Shown: positions 6,154 through 53,200 of the stretch, in pieces
Layout: every line of letters starts with the position of its first letter
How positions within the stretch are numbered: the first letter of the stretch is position 1
Assembly (NCBI GenBank): GCA_903879335.1
Contig: CAIRLC010000007.1
Location: forward strand, 186,001 to 250,000
Source of the DNA: an uncultured Pseudomonadota bacterium
Lineage (GTDB): Bacteria; Pseudomonadota; Gammaproteobacteria; Steroidobacterales; Steroidobacteraceae
Length of the DNA: 64,000 nt
Direction of reading: 5' to 3'
Position numbers and translations under genes: made by a program
The notes under the pieces: model-generated
The model's input: the letters and a program-made list of their open reading frames with translations, nothing else
What the model was told of the DNA's origin: nothing
The model's database searches: none

Positions 6154-6746
6154 GACTTACCGCCAACATGCGGACCGTGATGATTCACGTTAGCGGTAGG
6201 CGCTTCAGGCTCAGAACTCTTCTGTGTTGCAAATAGCGTGAATTCAGAGCCGGCACCGGTTTTCGCTGTTTCAATCACTTGCAGCTCAGGGTCGGTCAGC
6301 CAATCAGAGGCTTCAATATTCCGCATGAAGGTCGATACGCGGGTCGATGATTGCGCGACGCCACGAATCTCGATCCGCTTGTCGCTCTGCTTCACTGACG
6401 TGAGGTATACCCCTTCTGGAAGCGTTCTCGCGAGCTGGTCGAAGACATGAACGATTTCGGGTCGGCTGCGCTGGAGCTTGGAGATAATCTCCATTCGCGC
6501 AACGAGCCGCTGCTTCTGGTTTTCGAGATCAGATATTTCCTTGATTTGCTTGTCCAAGCCCGCAATTTCGCGCTTCAGCAAGGCGTTGCGCTCGTTCTGA
6601 CGGTCGATGGCCGCCGTAATCATCCAACTGGTCAGCAAAGTGACCGCGCCAGCCGCCATTACGGCGCCCACGACCGCCAAGCCGAACTCTCGCTGTCGAC
6701 GGACCCGCTCTTGCTGACGCCACGGGAGTAGATTAATCCGCGGCAT
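6150..6746 (-). CDS. pilN: Type IV pilus assembly protein PilN
   Basis: Partner of PilO and docking site for cytoplasmic PilM. The 198-residue product opens with MPRINLLPWR; the INLLPWR segment binds PilM in studied systems. A single transmembrane helix (about 23-45), a coiled coil (50-90) and a periplasmic domain follow. The start overlaps the pilM stop by one base (TGATG). The C-terminal tail after about residue 175 is Pro/His-rich and probably disordered. Confidence 0.95.
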   Translation of the reverse strand: MPRINLLPWRQQERVRRQREFGLAVVGAVMAAGAVTLLTSWMITAAIDRQNERNALLKREIAGLDKQIKEISDLENQKQRLVARMEIISKLQRSRPEIVHVFDQLARTLPEGVYLTSVKQSDKRIEIRGVAQSSTRVSTFMRNIEASDWLTDPELQVIETAKTGAGSEFTLFATQKSSEPEAPTANVNHHGPHVGGKS

Positions 6747-7831
6747 CAGTCAAAGCCTCGTATCGCCAGACCACAGGCAGTCAGTAACGCCGTTGCGTCC
6801 TTACGAACGCCCTGCGCCTTGGCTTTGGAGGAGATCTTCATTTGCCCGAGCGGATCGCCCCGTTCCGCGACTATTCCGACTCGGCTGGCAATAACATCGG
6901 CCACACCAGGGATGTTGGCGCATCCACCACAGACAAGGATCAGTTCAGGCGTTTCTCGACCGGTTCCTGAGGCCAAGTAGAACTGCATGCTGCGAGTGAC
7001 CTGCTGGGTCATATCATCGATAAATGGGTCGAGCACTTCGGGTTGATAGTTGGAGGGTAATCCGCCCTCTTTCTTGGCTCGACCAGCCTCCTCAACGGTC
7101 AGTCCATAAGTGCGCATGATTTCTTCGGTTAACTGCGAGCCGCCGAAGGCGAAGTCACGGGTATAGACGACGTTGTGGTTTTTTAGAACGCTAAAGGTTG
7201 TCGTGCTTGCACCAAAATCGACAACAGCGACCGTACCTTCGCCACCACCCGGCATTTGATGGGTCATTAGCCGGCAAGCGTTTTGTAGCGCGTAAGCCTC
7301 AACGTCAACAATGCGAGGCACCAGACCGGCGGCGACCACGGCCGCCTGACGCTGTTCAACATTCTCCGTTCGAGTGGCCACCAATAGAACGTCCAAGAGT
7401 TCAGGGTCTTTCTCAGACGGGCCTACCACTTGATAGTCATAACTGACCTCATCCATGGGGAACGGGATGTACTGGTCAGCCTGAAGGTCAATCTGTAATT
7501 CGAGATCGCGCGCCGAGAGGCTGCGCGGCATTTGAATCGACTTCGTAATGACCGAGTCGCCTGATATGGCAACGGCTGCTTCGCGCGCGCGCGCACCAGC
7601 CCGTTTTGCGGCCCGGCGAATGGCTTCGCCGACCGCGTCGGCATTCACGATGGCCTTTTCGTTGATCGCGCTCGGTGGCGTAGGCTCAGCCGCATATGCT
7701 TCGACACGGTATTGCCCGCCCGAATACGACAACTCAATCAACTTGATGGACGAGGTCGTAATGTCGAGCCCGATCAAGGGTCGAGCGGTAGTTCCGAACG
7801 GCAGGCGCAACTGGGGCAGCGAGAATTTCAT
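6746..7831 (-). CDS. pilM: Type IV pilus actin-like ATPase PilM
   Basis: Cytoplasmic actin-fold ATP-binding protein that ties the pilus platform to the alignment complex. The 361-residue product has the phosphate-1 loop LIGLDITTSSIKLIEL near the N-terminus, VAVVDFGASTTTFSVL (second phosphate loop, about 195-210) and LILVCGGCANIPGV (adenosine motif). It is the first gene of pilMNOPQ; AAGGAA precedes the ATG at close spacing. It is divergent from the PBP1a gene, the arrangement seen in Pseudomonas and relatives. Confidence 0.96.
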   Translation of the reverse strand: MKFSLPQLRLPFGTTARPLIGLDITTSSIKLIELSYSGGQYRVEAYAAEPTPPSAINEKAIVNADAVGEAIRRAAKRAGARAREAAVAISGDSVITKSIQMPRSLSARDLELQIDLQADQYIPFPMDEVSYDYQVVGPSEKDPELLDVLLVATRTENVEQRQAAVVAAGLVPRIVDVEAYALQNACRLMTHQMPGGGEGTVAVVDFGASTTTFSVLKNHNVVYTRDFAFGGSQLTEEIMRTYGLTVEEAGRAKKEGGLPSNYQPEVLDPFIDDMTQQVTRSMQFYLASGTGRETPELILVCGGCANIPGVADVIASRVGIVAERGDPLGQMKISSKAKAQGVRKDATALLTACGLAIRGFD

Positions 7832-8046
7832 AATTCCTTGAATAACAAGACTTAATCGGGTCTTGTTGCCGCCTTAAAGTAACAGTCCGGGGAAACTTTA
7901 TAGCAACAAATTGTTAAATGGAATGTGAACAGCTTCACGACTTGGCATTGCCGCCAGGTTGGACGACCGATTGGAGACGTGAACCGCCGCTGCGCAGGCC
8001 TTCCGGCCCCGTTACTATGCACAGTCCATCTTGACGAGATCCACCT
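7832..8046. promoter_or_regulatory. Divergent intergenic region, pilM / PBP1a
   Basis: These 215 bases separate two divergently transcribed genes and must hold both promoters. The half nearest pilM (7840-7925) is clearly AT-richer and on the minus strand contains TATAAA (from the segment around 7898-7903), a candidate -10 for the pil operon. I find no convincing -35 at standard spacing. For the plus strand TACTAT at 8013-8018 is a weak -10 candidate without a good -35. Confidence 0.4.
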
Positions 8047-10527
8047 TTGGCATCGTTTCTGCAGAGTCCGTCACAGCGCCGTCTGGCCGTCTTCATCGGC
8101 GGCGGCTTAGCCGCCTTCGCTGCCTTAATTTTACTCGCAGGATCAGGGGCTTATTACTACCTAGCGCCTAGTTTACCCGACGTCGCCACCTTGCGAGACG
8201 TGCGACTGCAAGTACCTTTAAGGATCTATTCTAGGGATGGGCGGTTGTTAGCGCAGATTGGCGAGCAACGCCGGACCCCGGTGCGATTCGAGGACATCCC
8301 TAAATCCGTGGTCAACGCCTTCATCGCGGCTGAGGATGACCGGTTCTTCAGCCACGGCGGAATAGACAGCTTTGGGTTGCTCCGCGCGGCATTGGCTTCT
8401 GCGGTCTCGGGTGAGGCGCGTCAGGGGGGCAGCACAATTACGATGCAGCTCGCCCGAAATATGTTCTTAACCCCAGAGAAGAACCTGCGGCGCAAGCTAC
8501 GCGAGATATTCCTATCGTTACGGATGGAGCAGGAATTTTCAAAGCAGGAAATTCTGACGTTATATCTGAACAAGATTTTCCTCGGCGAGCGCGCCTATGG
8601 CGTAGGTGCAGCCGCGGAGGTTTACTACGGCAAACCGTTGCGTGAATTGACGCTCGGGCAAATTGCGACAATCGCCGCGCTTCCGAAGGCCCCGTCGACG
8701 GTCAACCCGATTGCCAACCCGGAGCGGGCGCAGCAGCGGCGTGGTTACGTCTTGCGACGCATGCTTGAAAAAGGGTTCATCAGCCAAGCGGAGCACGACG
8801 CCGCTAACGCTGAGCCCATCGATACTTATGAGCACGGCCTGCGGGTAGAAGTTGATGCCCCGTACGTCGCCGAGATGGCGCGGTCGCAATTGGCAGAGCG
8901 ATTCGGGGCCGATCTTTATACCGCCGGCTATCGGATCTATACCTCCGTGGATAGCCGATTACAGCGCAGTGCGGACTGGGCCGTTCGCGCCGCACTGCTG
9001 GAGTACGACCGTCGCCACGGTTGGAGAGGCTCTATTGGGCACACCGACCACCCACCGACCAGAGCGGGTGATGCGATGCAGATGCTCGACGCATTCCCGG
9101 TCGTGGGTGGCTTGATTCCATCAGTCGTGACGACTGTCGACGCTCGCAGCGCAACGGTTTACGGCCGCGATGGCCGCCAGTTTCGGTTGCCATGGGAAAG
9201 TGGCTTGTCCTGGGCGCGACGGAACGGAGCCGCGCCACGGCAGACCGCCGATATTTTGTCGGTTGGCGACGTGGTCTATGTACTGCCAACTCGCGATGGT
9301 GGGGCGCTGTTGGCTCAGGTGCCGCAGGCGCAAGGAGCATTCGTCGCCCTAGATCCACAGGATGGCGCCATCAGTGCACTCGTGGGTGGGTTCGACTACT
9401 ACGCCAGTAAATTTAATCGTGTCGTGCAAGCCCGCCGCCAGCCTGGCTCCAGTTTCAAACCCTTTATTTACTCTGGTGCACTTGAACAAGGTTTTACGCC
9501 AGCGACCATGGTGCTGGATGCGCCAATCGTCATCGAGGGATCGGGTCTTGAAGGCCTATGGCGGCCGGAAAATGATTCCCGTCACTTCTACGGTCCAACC
9601 CGACTTCGTGACGCCCTAGCGCGATCACGTAACCTCGTTTCAATCCGCATCTTGCGCGCCCTTGGCGTTGATTACGCCATAGATTACGCGCAACGATTTG
9701 GCTTTGAACCCGCTGAATTGCCACACAATCTGACGGTTGCGCTCGGTACTGCCCAATTAACCCCTCTGGAGATGGTGCGGGGTTACGCTGTATTCGCCAA
9801 TGGCGGCTTCCGGGTCACGCCCTACCTGATTGATCGGGTTGAAGATGCTTACGGCAAGGTCCTAATGGCCGCCAATCCAGCGGTAGCCTGTATGGAGTGC
9901 GACCTCCCCGTTGATCCTCCGTTGCCCCAGCCACCCGGCGCTCTGCCAGCTGAATCTGCGGCGAGTGTTGATGCTGCGCCTGAGTCGGCTGACAGTTCGC
10001 ACAAGAACTCAGCACGCAATCTCGCGCCCCGAGTCATCAGCCCCGCAAATGCGTTCCTGATGACTGATCTGATGCGTGATGTGATTCGCAAGGGTACGGC
10101 CCGCAGAGCACTGGCACTCAAGCGTGACGACATTGCCGGCAAGACGGGTACCACGAACGATCGTCGCGACACCTGGTTCTCAGGCTTCAATGGTGACATC
10201 GTCGCCACTGCATGGGTTGGCTTTGACCAAGAAAGATCGCTCGGCGCGAATGAAGAAGGTGGCCATACCGCATTGCCGATTTGGGTGTATTTCATGGGTG
10301 AGGCTTTGGCCGGACGCCCAGAGCACCGACTGCCCCAGCCTGAAGGGATCGTGACCGCCAGAATTTCGCCCACGACCGGTTCAATGGCGCGTCCGAACGA
10401 ACCCGACGCCATATTTGAGTTTTTCCTCGCAGGCCGGCTACCTGGAGCTGGGGGACTGGCGGGTGATGGCGCGGGATCCGCGAGCAGCAAACCGGGTTCG
10501 GCGAACGGAGACGAGCAAATTTTCTGA
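8047..10527 (+). CDS. mrcA: Penicillin-binding protein 1A (class A PBP)
   Basis: Bifunctional peptidoglycan polymerase and cross-linker anchored in the inner membrane. In 826 residues: an N-terminal transmembrane helix (about 13-36), a GT51 glycosyltransferase domain with catalytic Glu96 in AAEDDRFF and the signature RQGGSTITMQLARN, an OB-like insert, and the transpeptidase domain with SSFK (Ser468 nucleophile), SRN (527-529) and KTG (699-701). A Pro/Ala/Ser-rich, cysteine-bearing insert (about 615-660) interrupts the transpeptidase domain before the KTG motif. The start is a TTG at 8047; no in-frame ATG lies before the membrane helix. It is divergent from pilMNOPQ. Confidence 0.95.
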   Translation: MASFLQSPSQRRLAVFIGGGLAAFAALILLAGSGAYYYLAPSLPDVATLRDVRLQVPLRIYSRDGRLLAQIGEQRRTPVRFEDIPKSVVNAFIAAEDDRFFSHGGIDSFGLLRAALASAVSGEARQGGSTITMQLARNMFLTPEKNLRRKLREIFLSLRMEQEFSKQEILTLYLNKIFLGERAYGVGAAAEVYYGKPLRELTLGQIATIAALPKAPSTVNPIANPERAQQRRGYVLRRMLEKGFISQAEHDAANAEPIDTYEHGLRVEVDAPYVAEMARSQLAERFGADLYTAGYRIYTSVDSRLQRSADWAVRAALLEYDRRHGWRGSIGHTDHPPTRAGDAMQMLDAFPVVGGLIPSVVTTVDARSATVYGRDGRQFRLPWESGLSWARRNGAAPRQTADILSVGDVVYVLPTRDGGALLAQVPQAQGAFVALDPQDGAISALVGGFDYYASKFNRVVQARRQPGSSFKPFIYSGALEQGFTPATMVLDAPIVIEGSGLEGLWRPENDSRHFYGPTRLRDALARSRNLVSIRILRALGVDYAIDYAQRFGFEPAELPHNLTVALGTAQLTPLEMVRGYAVFANGGFRVTPYLIDRVEDAYGKVLMAANPAVACMECDLPVDPPLPQPPGALPAESAASVDAAPESADSSHKNSARNLAPRVISPANAFLMTDLMRDVIRKGTARRALALKRDDIAGKTGTTNDRRDTWFSGFNGDIVATAWVGFDQERSLGANEEGGHTALPIWVYFMGEALAGRPEHRLPQPEGIVTARISPTTGSMARPNEPDAIFEFFLAGRLPGAGGLAGDGAGSASSKPGSANGDEQIF

Positions 10528-10589
10528 TGATCGGCGGATTGAATCTGGCCGATACTAGATTGAGATGGGCTGATCGAAGGGTAAGGTAA

Positions 10590-11222
10590 ATGACGCGTCC
10601 CCGGAGTATTCGAGGCGACGACATCAGGGTCGCGCTAGCTCAGGAAGCCGCTCGAATCATGTTCGAGCACGGCATCGAGGACTATGGTTTCGCCAAGCGC
10701 AAGGCCGCTGAGCGACTTGGCGCTGGTGAATATGCCGTATTACCGAAGAACGCGGAGATCGATGCTGCCCTCGCCGAATACCAACGTCTCTACGCCGCTG
10801 ATACCCATGACGACACGCTAGCCTTGCAGCGCCAAGCTGCCGTTGCGGCTATGGAACTACTCGCAGAATTTGAACCACGCCTCGTCGGTCCTGTACTCAC
10901 CGGCACAGCAACTCCGCATCAAACGGTCGCGCTCCACCTATTTTGTGACTACCCTGAATCGATCAGCATGCGATTGATGGATCAACATGTCCCACATAAT
11001 GTCGGGGAGCAGCGGGTTCGCATGAACTCTGAACGGTACTTGCTGTTGCCGACTATTGAATTTGATGTCTATGACATTCCATTTGAAGCCATCGTCTTCT
11101 CGAAAGACGGGATTCGTCAGGCGCCGTTATCAGCGTCGGACGGAAAGCCGACCCGCAGAGCGGGGCTGAACGAGGTGCGCACTCTGCTCGGCGCTGGCGC
11201 ACCGATCAGCTCTTACGAGTAA
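10590..11222 (+). CDS. Conserved protein of unknown function, nucleotidyltransferase-like
   Basis: A 210-residue soluble protein without signal peptide or membrane segment. It resembles a proteobacterial family sometimes labelled nucleotidyltransferase-like: an N-terminal helical part (MFEHGIEDYGFAKRKAAERL), a middle with PRLVGPVLTGTA, then mixed alpha/beta with ALHLFCDYP. No catalytic motif can be asserted. The ATG is preceded by AAGGTAA. It lies 60 bases after mrcA on the same strand and its last 17 bases overlap the convergent 3' end of the enoyl-CoA hydratase gene. Confidence 0.75.
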   Translation: MTRPRSIRGDDIRVALAQEAARIMFEHGIEDYGFAKRKAAERLGAGEYAVLPKNAEIDAALAEYQRLYAADTHDDTLALQRQAAVAAMELLAEFEPRLVGPVLTGTATPHQTVALHLFCDYPESISMRLMDQHVPHNVGEQRVRMNSERYLLLPTIEFDVYDIPFEAIVFSKDGIRQAPLSASDGKPTRRAGLNEVRTLLGAGAPISSYE

Positions 11223-49753: not shown

Positions 49754-50626
49754 CTAGCGCCTCTTAAGTTGACTCAAGGGTACTACCACCTCGCCAGAAG
49801 TCGCGCTTTGGCGATCAGAATCGCCATCCGGGCACCATGCTTGGCCATAAACCAGTTCACAGGTTACCGGGATCCGGCCCTCATCATTCCGAAGAGCCTC
49901 AAAAGCTGAGGTCGCAGCCTGCCAACGATGGCGCCCGGTTAAGGTACTTCGGCCTTGAAAAGAGGACCCGGCGCCCGCGGCCCTCAGATCCCGACACAGA
50001 TCGGCGAGGCTGGCATAGGTCACCGTCAAGCGGTCGGCATCGAGAACGGGCGCGACGAAACCGGCTCGCGTCAACGCGTCGCCGACGTCATGAAAATCAG
50101 TAAAATCAGCGACATGAGGCACAGCATCAACCTCAGAAAATGCCATGCGCAGTTCGCTGAGGGTGAGTGCACCGACGGTGGAAAAAACGAAGTACCCGCG
50201 CGGCTTTAGCACTCGCCGGACCTGCTCAAAAAAGGCGGTGGGGTCCGCCAGATAGGGCAGCAAGAAGCCAGCGAACACCAGGTCGACGCTGGAGTCAGTG
50301 ACCGGCAGGGCGGCCGCATCCGCCTGTACACAATCAAAACCACGCCACCAACCGCGCGCCTTGCACGCGGCGCGCAGCATGGACGGCGAGCTATCGACCA
50401 GTGTGACGGTCGCCTTGCGATAGCGATCCGCGAGGGCGCGCGCGCTGAAACCCGGGCCGCCGCCGATATCGAGAATATGAGTCGGCTTGATTTGGACAGG
50501 CTCTAAGCGGCGTAGCAACTCCTCTCGCGCCCGCGACTGGATGAAGGCCTCGTCGCGGAAGCGCTCAACGGCCAGGCTCAAACGGCGTTCACGAGCACGG
50601 GCTCCCCGATCCATTGGCTGACTCAT
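49754..50626 (-). CDS. bioC: BioC-type malonyl-ACP O-methyltransferase
   Basis: Methylates malonyl-ACP to start pimelate (biotin) synthesis. The 290-residue SAM-dependent enzyme has motif I ILDIGGGPGFSARAL, VDSSPSMLRAA (motif II), LVFAGFLLPYLADP and VLKPRGYFVFSTV. Its identification as BioC rests on these class I motifs, the N-terminal SLAVERFRDEAFIQSRAREELLRRL-like region and coupling to a bioH-like gene by a four-base overlap. The C-terminus after about residue 265 is a Ser/Asp-rich extension. Confidence 0.85.
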   Translation of the reverse strand: MSQPMDRGARARERRLSLAVERFRDEAFIQSRAREELLRRLEPVQIKPTHILDIGGGPGFSARALADRYRKATVTLVDSSPSMLRAACKARGWWRGFDCVQADAAALPVTDSSVDLVFAGFLLPYLADPTAFFEQVRRVLKPRGYFVFSTVGALTLSELRMAFSEVDAVPHVADFTDFHDVGDALTRAGFVAPVLDADRLTVTYASLADLCRDLRAAGAGSSFQGRSTLTGRHRWQAATSAFEALRNDEGRIPVTCELVYGQAWCPDGDSDRQSATSGEVVVPLSQLKRR

Positions 50627-51390
50627 TGGCCCAAAAACCCCTTGATCAAGCTTTCAACTTCCACGCGCTGAGACAAAAAGGGAGCGTGGGCAGCTTTCTT
50701 GATCTCGCAGTACCGCGCACCCGGGATGCGCTCAGCCAGCCCCAGCACACCCAGCGGGGGCGTGATGCGATCGTATTCCCCGGCGATGACGAGGGTCGGC
50801 GAGGCAATATTCTTTGCGGAGTTGCGCAAATCAACCGAGCGCAAGATCTCGAGTCCGGCCGCCAGCGCGGCACCATTGGGGGCTCCGTGGCTATCGATGT
50901 GCTGGCGGAGAGTGCGCAAAGTCTCTAGCGGATTCTCGTCACCGCGCACCTCAATATTGAGGAACTCGAGGACTGTACCGCGCCAGTCTCGGGCCAACCG
51001 GCCGCTCAACCCTGCCAGCAAGCTAGGGTCGGCCGCATGCGGAAAGTCCCGACGCCGGACGCCGACCACACCGGTCGAAATCATGACTAAGTGACTGACT
51101 CTATTTGGAAACAAAGTGGACAAGTGCTGCGCCACCAAGCCCCCGAGTGACCAACCGACCAGCGCACAGCGCTCCGGCAGGTGTGCCGCGACCAACCGGG
51201 CCATCCCCTCAAGATCACCAGCACCCTTCGACCACGGCGAGTGGCCATGGCCCGGCAAATCAAGAACATGGACCCGATATTGTTCGGACAATGTCGACGC
51301 CAGTGCTGAGAAAACTCCACCGTGCAAGCCCCAGCCATGGAGGAGAGCGACATCGGGGCCTGACCCCGTCGATTCCCGATAAAGACTCAT
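50623..51390 (-). CDS. bioH: BioH-type pimeloyl-ACP methyl ester carboxylesterase
   Basis: Cleaves the methyl ester that BioC introduced. The 255-residue alpha/beta hydrolase has the oxyanion segment LLHGWGLHGGVF, nucleophile elbow GWSLGG, the acid in VIAGEYDRITPP and the His in KKAAHAPFLSQ. MSLYRESTGSGPDVALLHGW resembles E. coli BioH. The ATG at 51390 follows the acetate kinase-PduL stop by four bases; a longer frame into that gene is a shadow. Overlaps bioC by four bases. Confidence 0.9.
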   Translation of the reverse strand: MSLYRESTGSGPDVALLHGWGLHGGVFSALASTLSEQYRVHVLDLPGHGHSPWSKGAGDLEGMARLVAAHLPERCALVGWSLGGLVAQHLSTLFPNRVSHLVMISTGVVGVRRRDFPHAADPSLLAGLSGRLARDWRGTVLEFLNIEVRGDENPLETLRTLRQHIDSHGAPNGAALAAGLEILRSVDLRNSAKNIASPTLVIAGEYDRITPPLGVLGLAERIPGARYCEIKKAAHAPFLSQRVEVESLIKGFLGQ

Positions 51391-51394
51391 GCGC

Positions 51395-53200
51395 TCAGTG
51401 TCGACCGCGGACGGCCAGGGTCTGCAACACGGCGCTCGCCGAACCCGTGATGCCGGCGGCATTCGCCTCGTCGGTGTCGATATGCATCTCCAGCGCTGCC
51501 TGTGCACTGACCCGGATCCGGACGTCTGCGAACGTGAGCGAGCGCTCGCCCTCGGCGCCGACATGGACCTCTACAGTGTCTGCATCTCGTACGCCGAACA
51601 CCCGGGCGTCGTCGGGGGTCATATGGATGTGCCGCAGCGCACAAATGACGCCGCGCGACAACGTCACGGCCCCTGCCGGTCCTTCAATTCGAATCCCGGG
51701 GGTTCCTGCCAAATCACCGGATTCGCGAACCGGCGCCTCAACACCGAGCCGCAATTCATCCGTGCGAGAGATTTCGACTTGATCCCAATCCCGCTCTGGC
51801 CCGACGACACGTACGTGCTCGATTCGACCCGTAGGGCCCACCAGGGTAACGGTCTCCTTCGCCGCAAATTGCCCCGGCTGCGAGATCGGGTGGTCCACGG
51901 CAAGGACGTGTCCGACACCGAACAATTGGGCCACCGAGTCTCTGGACAGATGCACATGTCGCGCGGATACGGCAATCGGGATCTGCACCTCGGATTTGAT
52001 CGCTTGCGCGCCACCGACTAGGCGATGCACCGCAGCTGCTATTGCCGCTTCCTCGTCGGTCGCCACGACCAAGACGCGACAGACTGCACCCGACGCGGAA
52101 ATCTCTACGACCGGTCTGGTGGCAGTGGCTCGACCGGCATCATTACGCTCGTCGTCGATCGTGATGCCCAAAAACTCAAGCCGCTCTAAGATCCGCCGGC
52201 GCATTTGAGCACTGTTTTGACCGACGCCGCCCGTAAAGACGATGGCATCGATGCCGCCCATTGCGGCGGCGTAGGCGCCAATATATTTACGCGCTCGGTA
52301 GGCATAGACCTCAACCGCCAGACGACAAGCCGCATCACCCTCACGGGCGCGCTGCTCGACAACGCGCAGATCGGCACTGCCGGTGAGACCCAACAGGCCA
52401 GCGCGACGATTCAACAGCTCATCCACTTGATCTGGGGTGTAACCTTCGCGCAGCAAGGTTAGAAGTAGCCCTGGATCGACATCACCCGAGCGGGTGGCCA
52501 TGACCAGCCCTTCGAGGGGTGTCAAACCCATGCTGGTGTCGACACTCCTTCCGTGTTCAACCGCCGTAATGCTTGCCCCAGCGCCTAAGTGGGCACTCAC
52601 AAGCCGTAACTGGCGTCGGTCGACGCCCAAATGGTCCGCCGCCAGTGTGGTTACGTAGTCATGGCTGGTGCCATGAAAACCAAAGCGACGCAGCCCTAAA
52701 CGCTCGCGTACGTCCGCCGGGATGGCGTATTCGCGAGCACGAGGGGGTAGCGTGGCGTGAAAAGCGGTATCAAAAACAGCCACATGGGGAATATGCGGCA
52801 AACGCTGCCGCGCAGCGCGCAGCGCGACGACTGCCGGCGGGTTGTGCAGTGGGGCATAACGCGACAACGTCTCGATATCCTGTACTGCATGGTCATCGAT
52901 CAACAGCGGAGCACTGTAGCGCTCGCCGCCGTGAACGATGCGGTGGCCCACTGCATCAACGCGATCCAAGACCGGCCCCCGGCGCTCTAGGGTCTTCAGC
53001 GCTAGGTTGACTGCCGCAGCCAAGTCCGGGGCATCCACCGGGTACTGCGCGCCATCGACCGACAATGTCGGCGCCGCGCCAATTCCGTCCACAGAAAGGC
53101 CATCGACCCGACTTCCGTCGGGGCGTAGGGTGGCAATCTTGACTGAGGAGCTACCGCAGTTAACGACAAGGGTCACGAAAGGCATACGCGATGCTAGCAT
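51395..53200 (-). CDS. Acetate kinase-PduL phosphotransacylase fusion
   Basis: One 601-residue chain joins two enzymes of the acetyl-CoA/acetyl-phosphate/acetate pathway. Residues 6-395 are an acetate/propionate kinase: NCGSSSVK, VGHRIVHGGERY, FDTAFHATLP, RRFGFHGTSHDYV, SAHLGAGASI and FTGGVGQNS. After a ~10-residue linker, 405-600 form a PduL-type phosphotransacylase with all zinc-binding histidines in place: SARHVHLS (His415, His417), ALRHIHMTPDDA (His524, His526) and EMHIDTDEANAAGI (His573). Both parts look active, so the protein should turn acetyl-CoA plus ADP and Pi into acetate plus ATP, or the reverse. No encapsulation peptide is seen. The start is ATG 53200 (GGGG upstream) or ATG 53185, which fits the AckA family start better. 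bioH follows by four bases. Confidence 0.93.
   Translation of the reverse strand: MLASRMPFVTLVVNCGSSSVKIATLRPDGSRVDGLSVDGIGAAPTLSVDGAQYPVDAPDLAAAVNLALKTLERRGPVLDRVDAVGHRIVHGGERYSAPLLIDDHAVQDIETLSRYAPLHNPPAVVALRAARQRLPHIPHVAVFDTAFHATLPPRAREYAIPADVRERLGLRRFGFHGTSHDYVTTLAADHLGVDRRQLRLVSAHLGAGASITAVEHGRSVDTSMGLTPLEGLVMATRSGDVDPGLLLTLLREGYTPDQVDELLNRRAGLLGLTGSADLRVVEQRAREGDAACRLAVEVYAYRARKYIGAYAAAMGGIDAIVFTGGVGQNSAQMRRRILERLEFLGITIDDERNDAGRATATRPVVEISASGAVCRVLVVATDEEAAIAAAVHRLVGGAQAIKSEVQIPIAVSARHVHLSRDSVAQLFGVGHVLAVDHPISQPGQFAAKETVTLVGPTGRIEHVRVVGPERDWDQVEISRTDELRLGVEAPVRESGDLAGTPGIRIEGPAGAVTLSRGVICALRHIHMTPDDARVFGVRDADTVEVHVGAEGERSLTFADVRIRVSAQAALEMHIDTDEANAAGITGSASAVLQTLAVRGRH

Follow-up and report, generated by a model that had tools for sequence, protein, structure and literature searches.

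PduL is best known from bacterial microcompartments, and classical acetate kinase (AckA) is usually a separate protein paired with Pta. In Ca. Phytoplasma mali, PduL takes the place of Pta upstream of AckA, outside microcompartments, for ATP and acetate, and the two are separate proteins there (PMC3984173). Combinations on a single chain have also been described: a passage of Erbilgin et al. 2016 (PMC4784909) places PF06130, the PduL family, in multidomain proteins that are mostly annotated as acetate kinases and lack encapsulation peptides, and proposes that the PduL–Ack fusion replaces Pta and serves the channelling of acetyl-phosphate. Besides that passage, no studied PduL–Ack fusion was found in the open-licence literature, an absence that is no proof. 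The gene analysed here lies in a stretch of 64,000 nucleotides (the window) and resembles those PduL–Ack proteins in its PF06130 and acetate kinase domains, its lack of an encapsulation peptide and the role proposed for it, but it differs from them in that the kinase of the window's genus carries the changes N211A and G239A. The preliminary description of this DNA had left open whether such a fusion was new; it is not, having been described in the 2016 passage and being present in several phyla. The fusion belongs to a widespread, already described protein family and is largely ordinary.

The gene is one uninterrupted frame on the minus strand (53200 to 51395) of 601 amino acids with no internal stop, and it holds both enzymes. 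Its parts are the following.

51395–53200, minus strand: ackA-pduL fusion gene, 601 amino acids; an alternative start is possible at Met6 (53185) instead of Met1
52037–53173, minus strand: acetate kinase domain, residues 10–388, placed by PF00871, TIGR00016 and the core residues
51986–52012, minus strand: interdomain linker, about residues 397–405, of low model confidence (residues 398–400 with pLDDT below 50)
51449–51979, minus strand: PduL (PTAC) domain, residues 408–584, placed by PF06130, NF011652 and mapping on 5cuo

The kinase half matches the Pfam family PF00871 over residues 10–388 (416.7 bits against a cut-off of 22, E 1e-124) and the NCBIfam model TIGR00016 for ackA (401 bits, cut-off 293). 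The second half matches PF06130 over residues 408–584 (241.6 bits, E 6e-72) and NF011652, phosphate propanoyltransferase (245.6 bits, cut-off 209). The single-chain fusion proposed earlier for 51395–53200 is thus borne out by the open frame and by both Pfam families. A short linker, about 10 residues long, joins the two halves; across the 95 open frames with both halves, a set that includes the kinase-deleted L147 and one genome twice, the linker span is 15–18 residues in 90. An AlphaFold2 model (m3bf71b3be1d2) built from 37 fused sequences has a mean pLDDT of 88 and a pTM of 0.75, and consists of two confident domains with low confidence around residues 397–405.

The same fusion occurs at no fewer than 80 loci of a genome-contig collection, with 46–57% best-segment identity, in Myxococcota, Bacteroidota, Pseudomonadota, Planctomycetota, Acidobacteriota and others, and relatives of the same genus and of the same family carry it too. 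It is uncommon in the window's class, where a match through both domains was present in about 8 of the 368 other genomes sampled. In a sample of 398 genomes of the phylum only six others contain PF06130, as three stand-alone proteins from one family and three fusions. Clustering the neighbourhoods of 80 fused loci from many phyla revealed no shared operon partner. In the kinase tree the separate kinases of the relatives form one group and the fused ones another, on weakly supported branches, a topology consistent with a single origin of the fusion. Several of the family's stand-alone PduLs are interspersed with fused ones in the PduL tree.

The source genome, which is 97% complete, was searched by family profile. 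It contains a single PF06130 and a single PF00871 match, both being the fusion gene. PF01515 occurs once, in a 777-residue frame that scores 1253 bits as the NADP-dependent malic enzyme MaeB; the search for a separate pta, proposed in the preliminary description, returned nothing else, and the genome has no stand-alone Pta by this profile. The absence of shell genes, noted earlier for the window, extends to the whole genome (PF00936), and the absence of an encapsulation peptide also stands, the PduL half following the kinase directly and leaving no room for an N-terminal peptide. That the gene is either a stray microcompartment part, as the usual setting of PduL might suggest, or an assembly artefact is accordingly to be regarded as vanishingly improbable: the lack of a shell gene and of room for the peptide rules out the former, and the latter is ruled out because independently sequenced genomes carry the same fusion intact, with neither a frameshift nor a stop between the domains.

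The PduL half retains a complete active site. The preliminary description had recognized a full set of zinc-ligand histidines, and all six zinc ligands map on the R. palustris microcompartment PduL (PDB 5cuo/5cup), with H415, H417, E476, H524, H526 and H573 corresponding to H48, H50, E109, H157, H159 and H204 of 5cuo. R470 and S494 correspond to the phosphate-site residues Arg103 and Ser127, and Gln74, Gln77 and Arg194 of 5cuo have identical counterparts. The window PduL also has Gln at the position where, according to Erbilgin et al. (PMC4784909), this residue is typical of acetyl/propionyl enzymes. The homologous R. palustris domain differs in the CoA-stacking residue, Phe116, which is Leu in the window, and the window PduL differs in turn by being fused to a kinase, without an encapsulation peptide or shell genes.

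The kinase half resembles classical AckA (PDB 1tuu, 2iir) in being full-length and in its core catalytic residues. All ten are kept (N14, S17, S19, K21, R87, H119, D144, H176, R237 and E383), equivalent to N7, S10, S12, K14, R91, H123, D148, H180, R241 and E384 of the M. thermophila enzyme. PduL goes by the name phosphate propanoyltransferase, and propionate kinases belong to the kinase family, which raises the question of whether propionyl or another acyl group is the true substrate; we consider this very unlikely, as the acetate-pocket residues V93, L122, F179 and P232 (M. thermophila numbering) are all conserved in the window kinase and neither a propanediol nor a methylcitrate gene was noticed among the neighbours of the fusion. 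Apart from being fused, the kinase departs from classical AckA at two nucleotide-site positions, conserved in the family yet not family-defining, both of which are alanine.

52580–52582, minus strand: Ala207 codon, aligned with Asn211 of M. thermophila acetate kinase, in the PHOSPHATE2 loop
52496–52498, minus strand: Ala235 codon, aligned with Gly239 of M. thermophila acetate kinase, in LOOP3

The earlier statement that both active sites look complete therefore holds for the PduL site and the kinase core, but only in part for the nucleotide site of the kinase. In the M. thermophila enzyme a hydrogen bond between N211 and G239 has been reported, and the single changes lower the specific activity from 883 in the wild type to 145 for N211A (6-fold) and 61 for G239A (about 14-fold) (PMC4390882). 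The same two alanines are found in each of the five other genus members whose full-length kinase was aligned, and other fused sequences, too, have Ser, Ala, Gly or His at position 211. Among the intact fused sequences, which are related and do not represent independent events, a residue other than Gly at 239 is always accompanied by one other than Asn at 211, and the 72 sequences with Asn211 all have Gly239. The sequences showing this co-variation are L071, L156, L157, L159 and L170, together with the genus members. Because the two positions vary together, the double change may be a compensated variant of the site.

Within the genus, the kinase half appears to have degenerated or been lost in several relatives, mostly draft genomes. 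In G010 (L147, 5064–5936, minus strand) an in-frame deletion removes kinase residues about 79–382 at the same locus and leaves PduL intact; no separate acetate kinase was found in this genome. G009 has PduL alone at the same locus and G005 a decayed gene. G006 (L163, 6506–8254) and G004 (L162, 7075–8805) have full-length fusions that have lost core kinase residues, N7S and E384V in the former and S10R and H123Q in the latter. G004, G006, G009 and G010 keep their PduL residues intact, and a separate ackA is present in G004, G005, G006 and G009. Since four relatives keep PduL with a kinase that is degenerate (G004, G006), deleted (G010) or absent (G009), the two activities appear to be separable and their tethering not essential.

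Taken with the genus-wide N211A/G239A, these losses beside an intact PduL could mean that the kinase half is disappearing, the gene supplying mainly PduL activity in this genus and the window kinase being a weakened remnant. We regard this as improbable, given that all ten core residues are kept in the window and in G001, G007 and G011, none of which has another kinase, and that the co-variation of 211 and 239 looks more like a coordinated variant site than like decay. The comparison with the nearest relative, G007, argues in the same direction, dN being lower in the kinase half (0.19) than in the PduL half (0.28), with synonymous sites near saturation; judged from this divergence, the window kinase half is under purifying selection. 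A related scenario, which we put forward tentatively and think unlikely, is that the genus dismantles the fused enzyme stepwise: the coordinated N211A/G239A change would come first, followed by loss of the kinase through point decay or in-frame deletion, while PduL would be kept for a function that needs no kinase, for instance to set the acetyl-phosphate level. On this view the window would represent an early stage.

The reading that we favour, and consider probable, is that of a cytosolic bifunctional enzyme that stands in for the usual Pta–AckA pair as the cell's switch between acetyl-CoA and acetate; we infer its activity from the domains and their catalytic residues. The PduL half would interconvert acetyl-CoA and Pi with acetyl-phosphate and CoA at the two-zinc site, and the AckA half would interconvert acetyl-phosphate and ADP with acetate and ATP. 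Acetyl-phosphate would be handed over by proximity, between domains that fold independently and are tied together by a flexible linker, and not through a tunnel; a flexible joint, in line with the low-confidence linker of the model, would fit proximity hand-over better than a fixed tunnel. One full acs, encoding acetyl-CoA synthetase, scores above cut-off in the genome, and because this separate enzyme covers acetate uptake, the main direction of the switch would be acetate excretion with a gain of ATP when respiration is limited.

Two genes follow the fusion on the same strand.

50623–51390, minus strand: bioH, TIGR01738 212.5 bits, over the cut-off
49754–50626, minus strand: bioC-like methyltransferase gene, TIGR02072 159 bits, below the cut-off of 185

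The bioH start codon lies 4 nucleotides after the fusion stop (51390–51397), an unusual combination of biotin and acetate functions. The bioC-like gene in turn starts before bioH ends. The fusion and bioH, which is not part of the enzyme, are probably in the same transcript; several members of the genus preserve this adjacency, and the order uvrD, fusion, bioH, bioC, cox, which genus members have in common, suggests a single transcript, in which no metabolic link is evident. Co-expression of the fusion with bioH and bioC would be expected simply because the genes lie in one transcript. No FNR-type box was found just upstream of the fusion start, the two-mismatch matches in the window being weak and no evidence for one, and a sigma-70 promoter scan of the region gave nothing above shuffled sequences.

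The fusion has neighbours of a different kind in the family's other genera. Phosphoketolase is directly downstream in L168 (G024, 6720–10907), back to back with the fusion in L158 (G017) and nearby in L166 (G044); outside these, it adjoins the fusion in L105 (Rhizobium herbae). Phosphoketolase makes acetyl-phosphate and is for this reason a fitting partner of the fusion in these relatives; the source genome of the window contains none. UspE, cbb3 oxidase and PAS-domain histidine kinases are also found near the fusion in the same bacterial family, and the neighbours in these genera point to an oxygen-limited metabolism there, a reading that is not directly transferable to the window because its gene has other neighbours.

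Two aspects of this otherwise ordinary family member could matter for the biology of the fused enzyme. The presence, within one genus, of intact, mutated and deleted kinases beside an intact PduL would provide a natural series bearing on whether tethering brings any advantage. The second point of interest is a genus-wide change at two residues known to control acetate kinase activity.
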